A stretch of DNA of 64,000 nt from an uncultured Isosphaeraceae bacterium (GTDB taxonomy: Bacteria; Planctomycetota; Planctomycetia; Isosphaerales; Isosphaeraceae): NCBI GenBank assembly GCA_937858365.1, contig CALLYK010000307.1:1-64000 (forward strand), given 5' to 3'. Position 1 is the stretch's first letter, and every line of letters starts with the position of its first letter. Below are positions 4,553 through 36,690 of this stretch, piece after piece. The notes below the pieces were generated by a model. The model made no database searches, had not been told where the DNA came from, and was given only the letters and a program-made list of their open reading frames with translations. A program made the position numbers and the translations under genes.

Positions 4553-6232
4553 ATGTCTCAAACCTCGCGATTCTGGAAGAGGGCAGGCGCCGTCGCCGCT
4601 GGCGGGCTTCTGCTCTCGGGCGCGCTGGCCTGGGCCGACAACCCGCCGCCCTTGTCCGAGCAGCTCCTTAAACTGGCCCGGCAAGCCGAGGCGGCCGGCA
4701 ACCTCGCCGACGCCCAGTCGGCCTATCGCCAGGTCCTCCGGCTCGACCCGGAAAACGCATCGGCCAAGCAGGCCCTGGCCCGAGGAGGCGCCCTCATCCG
4801 GCGCGTCTCTCGTCTGCAAGACCCGGCGCCGGGCATGCCCCAAGACGAGCCGATGCCCCCGCAACCGGGCGGCAACGAGCCCGACCAGAAGCCGGCCACG
4901 ATCGAATCGGCCCAGGAAGCGGACCGGATCCAGGCCGAGCGTTTGACCGCCGACATCAACAACCGCCTGGCCCGGGCCCGGAACCTGATCAACACGGGTC
5001 AGGCCGCCCAGGCCCTCGACGAAATCCGCCTGGCGATCAACGCGGTCCGGGGCGAGACCAACGTCCCCGAGCAGGTCCGGTCGTCCCTGGACCGGCGCCT
5101 TCAGGTCGAGTACCGATCGGCCCTCCGACGGGAAGAGGCCGACGAGGTCGCCAACAACAACCGCCTGAGGCTCGAGGCGTCGGCCTCCCAAGAGCAACGG
5201 GCCCTGGCCGAACTCCAGCAGCGGCAAGACACCGTGTCCGCCCTGATGACGCAGTTCGACACCCTCATGCTGACCGGCCAGTACGACATCCTCTACAGCG
5301 GCGGCTTCGGCGACATCGACAAGAACACGGCCCCGTTCTTCGACGCCCGCTTGCTGGCCACCCATGCGCGGGCCCTCGTGCCCCGCGACCCGGCCCCCCG
5401 CGCGGGCATCTTCACCGCCTCGGCCATTCAGTTCTACGCCCAGTCCCTGGCGTTCGACGAGGCCAAGGAATACCGCTACATGCTGTCGATGAACGACATC
5501 CTTCGCGCGGCCGTGCCCTTCCCCGACACCAAGATCATCGAGTATCCCGACGTCGAGTTCTTCCGGAGAATCACCGAGGAGCGCCGGAGCAAGTACGAGG
5601 TCGTGAGCCTCGAAGACACCGACGACCGCACGAAGGGGATCCGCGAGAAGCTCAACAAGGTCTACTCGATCCCGTTCGAGACCGACACGCCCCTGGAAGA
5701 AGTGCTCAAGTACATCCAGAACGTGACGGCCGACGAGAAGTTCCCCAAGGGCATCCCCATTTACTACGACGAGGTCGGCATCCAAGAGGCCGGTAAGGAC
5801 CGCGCCAACACAGTCAAGATCTCCCTCGAAGGCGTGCCCTTGAACGTGGTCCTCAAGCTGATGCTCAAGCAGCTCGGCCTGGTCTCGACCGTCTCCAAAG
5901 GCGTCTTGACCATCACGTCTCCCGAAGGCGTGAGCAAGTCCACCGAAATCCGCGTCTATCCGGTTGCCGACCTGTCCATCATCCCCCTCGCCCTGATGGG
6001 CGGCGGTGGCGGCGGCATGGGCGGTATGGGCGGCGGTATGGGCGGCATGGGCATGGGCGGTATGGGCGGCGGTATGGGCGGCATGGGCATGGGCGGCATG
6101 GGTGGTGGTATGGGTGGCATGGGTGGTGGTATGGGCGGCATGGGTGGCATGGGTGGCGGCGGCTTCCGCTCCATCCCGCCCCAGGCGCCTCAAGGCCCCC
6201 TCGCCTTGCCCCTGGAAAAAAAAACCCGCTGA
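4553..6232 (+). CDS. exported TPR/STN-like protein with Gly-Met-rich tail
   Basis: A 559-residue protein. The ATG at 4553 gives a clear signal peptide (basic RFWKR, then AGAVAAGGLLLSGALAWA, cleavage before DNPPP). Residues ~35-75 form a TPR-like unit (AEAAGNLADAQSAYRQVLRLDPEN). Residues ~80-360 are helical and Gln/Arg-rich. Residues ~375-465 resemble the STN/secretin short domain (TPLEEVLKYIQ ... VKISLEGVPLNVVLKLMLKQLGL ... GVLTITS), the module found at the N-terminus of secretins and TonB-dependent receptors. Residues ~483-537 are repeated GGM units. Likely periplasmic or envelope-associated. No secretin beta-domain is present, so calling it GspD would be wrong. Confidence 0.8.
   Translation: MSQTSRFWKRAGAVAAGGLLLSGALAWADNPPPLSEQLLKLARQAEAAGNLADAQSAYRQVLRLDPENASAKQALARGGALIRRVSRLQDPAPGMPQDEPMPPQPGGNEPDQKPATIESAQEADRIQAERLTADINNRLARARNLINTGQAAQALDEIRLAINAVRGETNVPEQVRSSLDRRLQVEYRSALRREEADEVANNNRLRLEASASQEQRALAELQQRQDTVSALMTQFDTLMLTGQYDILYSGGFGDIDKNTAPFFDARLLATHARALVPRDPAPRAGIFTASAIQFYAQSLAFDEAKEYRYMLSMNDILRAAVPFPDTKIIEYPDVEFFRRITEERRSKYEVVSLEDTDDRTKGIREKLNKVYSIPFETDTPLEEVLKYIQNVTADEKFPKGIPIYYDEVGIQEAGKDRANTVKISLEGVPLNVVLKLMLKQLGLVSTVSKGVLTITSPEGVSKSTEIRVYPVADLSIIPLALMGGGGGGMGGMGGGMGGMGMGGMGGGMGGMGMGGMGGGMGGMGGGMGGMGGMGGGGFRSIPPQAPQGPLALPLEKKTR
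6000..6165 (+). repeat. in-frame Gly-Met coding repeat
   Basis: Tandem, slightly diverged units of ATGGGCGGC/GGTATG-type sequence at the 3' end of the preceding gene, translating to runs of GGM, GGGM and MGM. The near-identical short units make replication slippage likely, so copy number probably varies between strains. Confidence 0.85.
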
Positions 6233-33719: not shown

Positions 33720-34340
33720 TCAGAATGGTTGTCGTCCCGAAAGGGCGTCGGCCAGCATCTCTTTGTTGGCGAACTCCAACGCGCCCCCCGAAGCGAGGCC
33801 CCGGGCCAGCCGGGTGAGCGCAACACCCGTGGCCGTCAATCGCTCCGACACGAGCAACGCGGTCCCGTCTCCCTCGAGGTTCGGGTTGGTGGCCAAGATC
33901 ACTTCGCGGACCGTGCCGGAACGGACCCGCGCGGCCAGGGCCTCAATGGTCAGTTGGTCGGGGCCGACCCCTTGTAAGGGAGACAATCGACCGAGCAGGA
34001 CATGGTAAACACCTCGGAAGGTCCCTGCGCGTTCCAGGGCCATCAGGTCGCGGGGCTGCTCCACGACGCACACGATCCCCTTGTCGCGCCTCGGGTCGCG
34101 GCAGACTGCGCATTCTGCCTGCTCTGCTTCCGCCAGATGAAAGCATGTTACGCAGTGGTGGATGCGTTCCCGCGCGGCGCGGATCGCCTCGGCGAGTGCG
34201 AGGGCCTCCTCGGGCGGGCATTTGACCAGGTGGTGGGCCAATCGTTCGGCCGACTTGGCGCCGATGCCTGGAAGTCGTCCCAGCGCGGCGACCAGACGGT
34301 CGATCGTGCTGGTCATGGACGAGGACGCGTCGCCATCCAT
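33720..34340 (-). CDS. recR: recombination mediator protein RecR
   Basis: A 206-residue RecR of normal length. The N-terminal HhH is LGRLPGIGAKSAERLAHHLV. The four-Cys zinc finger is C63, C66, C77, C80 (CVTC...CAVC). The Toprim domain includes IVCVVEQPRDLMALERAG and VREVILATNPNLEGDGTALLV. The Walker-B-like GLASGGALEFANKEMLADAL lies at the end. The start at 34340 has GAGG about 9 bases upstream; ATG 34316 is an alternative. It works with RecF/RecO in loading RecA at gaps. Third in the dnaX-ybaB-recR order found in many bacteria. Confidence 0.95.
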   Translation of the reverse strand: MDGDASSSMTSTIDRLVAALGRLPGIGAKSAERLAHHLVKCPPEEALALAEAIRAARERIHHCVTCFHLAEAEQAECAVCRDPRRDKGIVCVVEQPRDLMALERAGTFRGVYHVLLGRLSPLQGVGPDQLTIEALAARVRSGTVREVILATNPNLEGDGTALLVSERLTATGVALTRLARGLASGGALEFANKEMLADALSGRQPF

Positions 34341-34357
34341 CGCGTGGTCCTCAGTTC

Positions 34358-34705
34358 TCAAGGCGTGTCGGGTTTGCCGAAGAGGTCGCCCAGGCCGGGC
34401 AGCGAAAGGCCCCCAGTCGCCGATCGGAGCGATTCGGCGGCCGCTTCTCGGGCCTTGGCCAAGGCTTGATTGACGGCGGCCGTGACGAGGTCTTCGAGAA
34501 GCTCGACGTCGCCGTCGGCCACCGTTTTGGGGTCGATGCGCACGCCGAGGACTTCCATCCGGCCGTTGGCCCGCGCCGTGACGGCGCCGCCGCCCACGGC
34601 GGCCTCGACCTTCACCTGACCGAGCGACTCGGTGGCGCGTTCCATCGATTCGCGGAGCTTGCCCGCGTTTCGCATCAACTCGCCGAGATTTCCAAAATTG
34701 AACAT
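34358..34705 (-). CDS. ybaB: YbaB/EbfC nucleoid-associated protein
   Basis: A 115-residue member with the family layout: LGELMRNAGKLRESMERATESLGQ helix, strands KVEAAVGGGAVTARANGRMEVLGVRIDP, then LLEDLVTAAVNQALAKAREAAAESL helix. It forms dimers that bind DNA without strong specificity. It lies between dnaX (34 bp upstream) and recR (17 bp downstream), the conserved order. Confidence 0.94.
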   Translation of the reverse strand: MFNFGNLGELMRNAGKLRESMERATESLGQVKVEAAVGGGAVTARANGRMEVLGVRIDPKTVADGDVELLEDLVTAAVNQALAKAREAAAESLRSATGGLSLPGLGDLFGKPDTP

Positions 34706-34738
34706 ACTCTTCCTCGATCTCGGTGGGAGTGGCGCCGT

Positions 34739-36493
34739 TCAAGCCTCTGGGCCCGGCGACCCTTCGGCCTCCACACGCACGGGACGCGCTTCGAAGAGTT
34801 CGACGATCTTCTGGATGAACGGGTCGTCGAGCGACTCTTCGGGTCGGGGTTGCGGCGGAGCGTTGTTCTCGGAAGTCGGCCGATCGATCCGCAAGGTGAT
34901 TGGTCGTCCCAGGAGCGTCTTCAAGACCGATTCGAGGCGGGCCCGCGACTCGGGCGCGTCGAAACGGTCGGCGACCCAATTGTATCCGGACTCGACCCCC
35001 ACGGCCAATTCATCAGGGGCCGAAACGGCCAGCGGTCGAAGCCACTTGGCCAATCCAGCGAGGTCGCGGTCCAAATGCTGAGGGACGAGGGACCAGATCG
35101 CCTCAACGGCGTCCAAGCGCAACGGGAGTGTGGGGCCTTCGGGCGTCGCGCGCGCGGGTCGCGCTGCGGGCGGCGCGGGTGTTGGTCGAGGCTCGGGCGG
35201 CGCCTCCTTCAGCTTCCCTTCAGGCTTTTTTTTTTCGGGCGCCGGCGCGGGAGGTGGCGGGGGAGTCGCGCGGGGTGCTGAAGCAATCGGCGTCCCCGCT
35301 TCGAGCGCCGAGAGGCGGGAAATCAATTCGGACAGTTCGACGAACGACTCCAGGCGGGCGACCCGGCAGAGGGCCAGCTCCACGATCAAGCGGCCGTGGG
35401 GACTGCCTCTCAATCGGCCGCGGGCCTGGTCCAGCACCTGCATCGCGGCGAGAAGCGCATCCAGGCCCCATGTCTTGGCCAGGGCCTCGACGCGGGGCCG
35501 CTGCGTGGGTGTCGCGGCGAGCGGTTCGACCTCCACGGCCCCGGCGCCGAGCACCAGGGCATCGCGCAAATAATCGAGGGCCCCGCCCAGCATGTCGGCC
35601 GGTTGCACACCTCCGGCGACGGCCCGGTCGAGTTGCGTCAATGCGGCGGCGGCGTCGCGCGCGGCGAGGGCGTCGAGGAGGTCCAGGACGCGCTCATCGG
35701 CGGCCACGCCCAGGATGCGGTGCACGTCGTCGCTGGACACCCGCTTGTCGCCGCTGGAGAGGAGTTGCTCCAGGAGCGACTGCGCGTCGCGCATCGAGCC
35801 GGCGGCGCGCCGCGCGATCGTGCGTAGGGCGACGTCGTCGGCCGAAACGCCTTCGCGTTGGCAGATCGCGGAGAGGGTATGGGCGATCGCGTCGGGACCG
35901 ATCGGCGCGAGTTCGAAGCGTTGGCAACGAGAGAGGACGGTGATGGGGACCTTGTGGGCCTCGGTCGTGGCGAAGAGGAACTTGACGTGTTCGGGCGGCT
36001 CTTCCAGCGTCTTCAACAGGGCGTTGAAGGCTTGGGTGGAGAGCATGTGGACTTCGTCGATGTAATAGATCTTGAATCGCGAGCGGCTGGGCCGGAGGCC
36101 GGCGTTTTGTCGGAGTTCGCGCACGGCCTCGACGCCGTTGTTGCTGGCCCCGTCGATTTCGATCACGTCGACGTCTTGGCCGCTGGTGATCGCCTGGCAG
36201 ATGTCGCATTCCTGACAGGGGTGGAGGGTGGGCCCCTTCACGCAGTTCAGGCACTTGGCGAAGATGCGCGCCAGCGACGTCTTGCCCACTCCGCGGGTGC
36301 CGCAGAAGAGGTAGGCGTGGGCGACCCGCTTGAGTTGGATCGCGTTGCGCAGGGCCTCGACGACATGGTCTTGGCCGACGACTTCCTCGAAGCGTTGCGG
36401 GCGGTAGCGGCGCGCGACGACCGTGTAGCCGTCTTCGGCGGCCCTGCCGGTCTTCGTCGGCGGAGCTGGGGTCGTGGTCAAGGTCGCCGGCAC
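34739..36493 (-). CDS. dnaX: DNA polymerase III gamma/tau subunit
   Basis: A 584-residue clamp-loader ATPase. Walker A GTRGVGKT (65-72), zinc Cys cluster C81/C84/C93/C96/C99 region, Walker B IYYIDEVHML, sensor 1 FATTEAHKVP and the Arg-rich sensor 2 AAGSMRDAQSLLEQ. The collar domain runs to about residue 390, then a Pro/Lys-rich linker and a tau C-terminal domain. Codons 420-423 (GAA AAA AAA AAG) contain ten consecutive A. Slippage adding one A would read Lys-Ala-stop, giving a product of about 424 residues, the size of a gamma subunit; see the separate site. It is downstream of the SRP RNA gene. Confidence 0.95.
   Translation of the reverse strand: MPATLTTTPAPPTKTGRAAEDGYTVVARRYRPQRFEEVVGQDHVVEALRNAIQLKRVAHAYLFCGTRGVGKTSLARIFAKCLNCVKGPTLHPCQECDICQAITSGQDVDVIEIDGASNNGVEAVRELRQNAGLRPSRSRFKIYYIDEVHMLSTQAFNALLKTLEEPPEHVKFLFATTEAHKVPITVLSRCQRFELAPIGPDAIAHTLSAICQREGVSADDVALRTIARRAAGSMRDAQSLLEQLLSSGDKRVSSDDVHRILGVAADERVLDLLDALAARDAAAALTQLDRAVAGGVQPADMLGGALDYLRDALVLGAGAVEVEPLAATPTQRPRVEALAKTWGLDALLAAMQVLDQARGRLRGSPHGRLIVELALCRVARLESFVELSELISRLSALEAGTPIASAPRATPPPPPAPAPEKKKPEGKLKEAPPEPRPTPAPPAARPARATPEGPTLPLRLDAVEAIWSLVPQHLDRDLAGLAKWLRPLAVSAPDELAVGVESGYNWVADRFDAPESRARLESVLKTLLGRPITLRIDRPTSENNAPPQPRPEESLDDPFIQKIVELFEARPVRVEAEGSPGPEA
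35226..35235 (-). other. A10 slippage-prone run in dnaX
   Basis: Ten T on the plus strand, so ten A in the dnaX coding strand, after the G of codon 420. With one extra A (equal to -1 frameshifting) translation ends at once (GCC TGA). With one A fewer (+1) it ends after five codons (AGC TGA). Both give a gamma-like truncated protein. Thermus dnaX uses transcriptional slippage on an A9 run and E. coli uses ribosomal frameshifting on A6G. Confidence 0.7.
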
Positions 36494-36555: not shown

Positions 36556-36690
36556 GCCGGGGGCCGGAGTGGACCGGGGAGGCGCTCCCGGACACATGAA
36601 GGCGATGCTTATGGCTGCTGCGTTCCCGCCCTGACCAGGTTCACAAGCCCCCATTGCCCGGGTCCCCCCCGGTCCACTCCGACCCCCGCC
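36556..36690 (-). ncRNA. ffs: signal recognition particle RNA (small bacterial type)
   Basis: The minus strand contains the conserved helix-8 core GTGAACCTGGTCAGG, then GCG-GGAA-CGC (tetraloop GGAA) and GCAGCAGCCATAAGC. The flanks form a long terminal stem: 36559-36579 pairs with 36666-36686 with one mismatch. This is the Alu-less SRP RNA that binds Ffh. It lies just upstream of dnaX, as in many bacteria. The ends are set from the stem and may be off by several bases. Confidence 0.9.

Follow-up and report, generated by a model that had tools for sequence, protein, structure and literature searches.

The dnaX gene discussed here carries ten successive A residues in its sense strand, and raises the question of whether a single gene can give rise to two clamp-loader subunits, full-length tau and a shorter gamma-like protein. 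It lies in a 64,000-nucleotide stretch of DNA from an uncultured Isosphaeraceae bacterium, and we refer to the whole of that stretch as the window. A sequence-only reading had noticed the run and proposed that slippage on it in either direction would give a product of about the size of gamma, as in Thermus. We sampled dnaX from 58 relatives, from 119 genomes of the phylum and from 80 named loci of bacteria at large, and conclude that the run is probably a programmed transcription-slippage site, by which one dnaX would encode both subunits.

The protein is a genuine DnaX; it has Pfam matches to DNA_pol3_delta2, DNAX_ATPase_lid and DNA_pol3_gamma3, and scores 438.7 bits against TIGR02397, for which the cut-off is 250. 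The gene order in the window is SRP RNA, dnaX, a ybaB-like gene and a recR-like gene, and in E. coli too ybaB comes directly after dnaX. In the AlphaFold model the collar helices end at about residue 398 and the C-terminal domain starts at residue 460; the linker between them has a predicted pLDDT of about 43-55 over most of its length and no secondary structure, and it is here, at codons 420-423, that the run is found. The original suggestion that the run follows the ATPase and collar domains thus agrees with both the Pfam and the AlphaFold layouts. As the run is within the linker, a product truncated there would retain the ATPase and collar and lose the C-terminal domain. Foldseek gave weak matches of the modelled C-terminal domain to SirA, DciA and E. 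coli tau (5fku_E, 2aya), the best having an E value of 0.005 and none being at E <= 0.001. The model is suggestive of a counterpart of E. coli tau domain V, and the position and fold of the domain would fit a polymerase-binding role. The features are listed in the Table.

Table. Features of the window dnaX locus, in order of position.
Feature	Position	Strand	Basis or remark
recR-like gene, within ORF 33720-34979	33720-34340	-	by eye; start codon picked by inspection
ybaB-like gene, next downstream of dnaX	34358-34705	-	ORF translation, family recognised by eye
dnaX, DNA polymerase III subunit gamma/tau, full-length product (tau) 584 aa, GTG start	34739-36493	-	ORF; Pfam; TIGR02397
tau-specific C-terminal domain, aa 460-537, KH-like fold, absent from short product	34883-35116	-	AlphaFold pLDDT ~95
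predicted disordered linker, aa 399-459, containing A10	35117-35299	-	AlphaFold model
TGA met after one deleted A or +1 shift	35209-35211	-	simulated indels; 427 aa, ends KKSLKGS
TGA met after one inserted A or -1 shift	35220-35222	-	simulated indels; 424 aa, ends KKKA
in-phase heptamer A_AAA_AAG within A10, E. coli-type -1 site	35225-35231	-	common to 21 of 53 run-bearing class members
A10 slippery run	35226-35235	-	codons 420-423; A9/A10 kept in 53 class members
DnaX domain III (collar), aa 252-394, retained in short product	35312-35740	-	Pfam PF12169
small SRP RNA (ffs), immediately upstream of dnaX	36573-36670	-	Rfam RF00169, 62.5 bits

The run is ten T on the plus strand, read in dnaX as the A10 of codons GAA420-AAA421-AAA422-AAG423; the sequence-only reading had it at 35224-35236, which we narrow to the position in the Table. 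A synonymously broken version of it would read AAGAAGAAG. That reading had also expected Lys-Ala-stop after one inserted A, an early stop after one deleted A, and in either case a product of about 424-428 residues. Simulated indels gave just these two outcomes, and with two A added or removed gave 428 and 423 aa respectively, so that the short products cover 423-428 aa as compared with about 431 aa for E. coli gamma. Addition of three A restored tau, now of 585 aa.

With regard to chance, the window has three A9 windows against 0.12 expected, a number reached by no shuffle, and in the whole genome (6.8 Mb) A9 or longer occurs at about 22 places and A10 or longer at six. A second A9, at 6216-6224 on the plus strand, lies close to the 3' terminus of a long open frame, about four codons ahead of its stop; insertion of one A would lead into a frame that remains open and continues into one of 568 codons. 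Slippage might join the two genes here, which makes this a possible second site of the kind.

The check proposed earlier, on close relatives, showed the run and the stops in both shifted frames to be kept across most of the class Planctomycetia. In our dnaX tree an A9 or longer run is present in the linker in 50 of the 63 genes of the Planctomycetia clade, and 29 of the 35 sampled genera of the class carry a run of exactly nine or ten A. The run-bearing class genes are mostly GC-rich. They include that of Schlesneria (L175), and those of Gemmata (L169) and Aporhodopirellula (L171), both of which are within the class clade of the tree; L174 and L177 are placed in Planctomycetia by NCBI, and L174 is without the run. 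The base of the class clade has a support of 95 in a quick tree, and a single origin of the run within it is likely on the sequence data. About a fifth of the class members lack the run, and it is thus either dispensable or replaceable. Two close relatives (L012 and L025, of the genus of L024) have lost it, L012 retaining KKKL at the site with a longest A stretch there of 5 and L025 having KTRL, and could be used as natural controls without slippage. DnaX domain III was not found in three genomes (G003, G015 and G009), which is probably due to assembly gaps.

Among the 53 run-bearing class genes the run is nine A in 30 and ten A in 23. The codon phase of the run is 0, 1 or 2 in 4, 22 and 27 genes respectively, and the base that follows is G in 26, C in 20 and T in 7. 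On this comparison run length is held constant while the encoded residues and the codon phase vary. We used a null model in which synonymous codons are resampled with the protein fixed and codon usage kept. Under the null A9 or longer is expected in 4.2 genes and is observed in 53. A stop within six codons is present in the -1 frame in 43 genes (13.3 expected), in the +1 frame also in 43 (12.6 expected), and in both shifted frames in 37 (2.5 expected), these 53-gene counts treating related genes as independent. Taking one gene per genus eases, but does not remove, the effect of shared ancestry, and still gives both-frame stops in 21 of 29 genes with 1.15 expected and +1-frame stops in 24 of 29 with 6.3 expected, neither being reached in any of a million simulations. 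The linker cannot be aligned across genera, and its synonymous sites should therefore have been well shuffled. By these tests the run is under selection in Planctomycetia, and the A10 is very probably no chance repeat but a switch built into the gene.

The proposed mechanism is that RNA polymerase, with its RNA:DNA hybrid of 9-10 bp (PMC5009743), slips on a hybrid that is all rA:dT, to give dnaX mRNAs with additional or fewer A. Full-length tau would be translated from transcripts in which the count of A is 10 or 10+3n, and those with any other count would meet a stop within about five codons in one or other shifted frame, so that translation would end in the linker. The short product would be gamma-like, about 423-428 aa, comprising ATPase and collar only. 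The sequences show the run, its stops, the domain layout, and conservation and selection across the class; slipping of the polymerase at A10 in the host, like the gamma:tau ratio and the role of gamma, we infer.

It is also possible for the window, if taken alone, that gamma is made by -1 programmed ribosomal frameshifting on the in-phase A_AAA_AAG, a point missing from the earlier reading, in which case the long run would be incidental or would add slipperiness. The window has the exact heptamer in phase and then an immediate -1 stop, as in E. coli, and -1 stops are enriched class-wide. However, the class data make this explanation unlikely. Only 21 of the 53 genes have A_AAA_AAG in phase, the in-phase heptamer being solely A_AAA_AAA in 19, A_AAA_AAC in 10 and A_AAA_AAT in 3, and a heptamer needs seven bases, yet all of the counted runs have 9 or 10. 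An upstream Shine-Dalgarno sequence was not found in the window, and was found in 2 of the 53 class genes as against 4.8 expected; nor was a stable downstream stem-loop found, the window having a rank of 0.66 and the class genes a mean rank of 0.58, each in its own gene. The same tests applied to E. coli dnaX as a control detected both elements, with a rank of 0.11 for the stem. It was on the Shine-Dalgarno, stem and heptamer-phase tests, with this control, that ribosomal frameshifting was demoted. Slippage can add or remove A, so that both shifted frames matter, whereas -1 ribosomal frameshifting uses only one, and it is mainly because the +1 stops are as enriched as the -1 stops that we favour slippage; indeed in four genes (L009, L016, L028 and L178) the +1 stop is near and the -1 stop far. 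Finally, frameshifting of this type goes with a single tRNA-Lys(UUU), and ARAGORN finds tRNA-Lys(CUU) in the window's genome, and most relatives show its anticodon-loop pattern too. In sum the both-frame stops, the 9-10 length, the lack of Shine-Dalgarno and stem elements, and tRNA-Lys(CUU) point to slippage of the Thermus type in preference to ribosomal frameshifting.

A second alternative is that a lysine-rich linker, under protein-level selection or none, has given rise to the run as a by-product, and that there is no second protein. KKK or AKKN is indeed encoded at the site in many members of the class, in a linker that is otherwise unconserved, but we think this explanation very improbable. 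The ratio of AAA to AAG lysine codons is 118:21 inside the run and 314:612 elsewhere in the same genes, a skew against the genes' own usage, and given the proteins only about 4 of the 53 runs are expected. A constant length over varying residues and phase, and the enriched stops of both shifted frames, are further points against it; on codon choice and varying phase we rejected the pure poly-lysine reading.

That the run serves for phase variation at the DNA level, as a contingency locus, or is an artefact of sequencing or assembly, is barely credible. Long homopolymers are mutable and error-prone, and many of the genomes, including that of the window with its 591 contigs, are fragmented assemblies prone to homopolymer errors. 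However, the counted relatives, finished single-contig genomes among them, have a frame that reads through the run without interruption, and a frame error would break these ORFs. Phase variation is implausible for an essential replication subunit, and conservation of the run extends across the class.

Outside the class, in the rest of the phylum and in other phyla, the run is sparse and scattered, and overall the dnaX tree requires at least 19 gains or losses. Isolated A9 or A10 runs in the linker, with near stops in both shifted frames, are present in L196 (Ignavibacteria), L202 (Verrucomicrobia), L080, L084 and L160, and are probably of independent origin. In two genes from the other classes of Planctomycetota (L115 and L161) the arrangement is reversed, an A10 being followed three or four codons on by a zero-frame stop, and the C-terminal domain being in the frame into which insertion of one A leads. 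If the assemblies are right tau would in these cases require slippage or frameshifting, and the two resemble the two-ORF dnaX genes that Antonov et al. described from other bacteria (PMC3711429).

Other sampled dnaX genes are interrupted in different ways. Six from the other classes of Planctomycetota (L098, L104, L108, L137, L147 and L149), which form one fully supported clade, have a zero-frame stop just past the collar and no A-run. The stop context is similar in five of them (CG[CG]TAGGG), and for L098, L108 and L137 a profile search detected the C-terminal domain of tau in the -1 frame. Unknown recoding, reinitiation or split genes are all possible. Another fully supported clade (L140, L144, L151, L218, L243 and L161) has zero-frame stops at the same place; here L161 has A10, L243 A8 and L218 A7, and L140, L144 and L151 have a conserved GGGAAAAGCCTGA. 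The tau domain is in the -1 frame in L161 and, weakly, in L218 and L243. In the case of L143 the domain is encoded farther downstream, in a separate frame that has an ATG of its own, and dnaX is apparently split.

A switch of this kind is already known from Thermus, and what would be new is its presence in planctomycetes and its class-wide occurrence. We are inclined, by a little, to the broader view that a gamma/tau switch based on slippage became fixed near the origin of Planctomycetia and was mostly kept, and that its signature re-arose in the phylum and beyond, in some cases with a single ORF and in others as the reversed two-ORF arrangement, where tau is slippage-dependent. If so, slippage-made gamma would be a recurrent, selected feature of bacterial replication that is not confined to Thermus. 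On the question of why bacteria make gamma, a class that keeps both the run and the stops of both shifted frames offers comparative evidence for selection of a truncated clamp-loader subunit. The class includes culturable organisms and the claim can be checked in existing RNA-seq. Truncating slippage is considered hard to detect by comparison (Baranov et al., PMC1088944), and a usable test is to ask whether both-frame stops are enriched over a synonymous null.

With regard to known systems, one review states that signals for dnaX frameshifting are absent from most other bacteria, in which gamma may not be made (PMC3290774), and another restricts the production of gamma by frameshifting to the enterobacteria, slippage in Thermus and proteolysis in Caulobacter being isolated parallels (PMC4456610). 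The sequence-only reading knew of no report of a slippage site in planctomycete dnaX, and we also found none in the searchable open-access literature, the coverage of which is incomplete. Caulobacter also has a gamma-like form, but it is made post-translationally by proteolysis of tau, for which neither an A-run nor shifted stops are needed. The two-ORF genes have A10 at the gamma/tau junction and were aligned with Thermus by their authors (Antonov et al. 2013, PMC3711429); in them a zero-frame stop follows the run and slippage is required for tau, whereas in the window dnaX no zero-frame stop was found right after the run, the zero frame continues for 161 codons past it, and tau is the zero-frame product.

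Frameshifting on A_AAA_AAG is established for E. coli dnaX (PMC1088944, PMC5009743), and the window gene shares with it the in-phase heptamer, the near-immediate -1 stop, and the type and size of product (424 aa as against about 431 aa). However, the E. coli run is of 6 A and that of the window of 10, the window is without the upstream Shine-Dalgarno and downstream stem, it has a nearby +1-frame stop and a CUU tRNA-Lys, and the heptamer is not kept class-wide.

Thermus thermophilus dnaX undergoes transcriptional slippage on A9 (Larsen et al. 2000, as cited in PMC1088944 and PMC5009743). There are differences, in that the phylum is another one, the window has A10 and the class A9 or A10, and the Thermus run is about seven-eighths of the way through the gene (PMC1088944) and that of the window about 72%; here slippage is predicted from its sequence signature, and the 1:1 product ratio is that of Thermus. 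Thermus has two lysine tRNAs, which a review links to its use of slippage (PMC5009743), and more than one kind of lysine tRNA is a point of likeness, CUU being the only one directly found in the window assembly. In both cases tau is encoded in a single ORF with a sense-strand run of 9-10 A and stops nearby in both non-zero frames (for Thermus by the literature), and truncation would be gamma-like, with the window run between the collar and the tau-specific domain. The likeness to Thermus that was first proposed thus extends to every feature that can be seen in the sequence.
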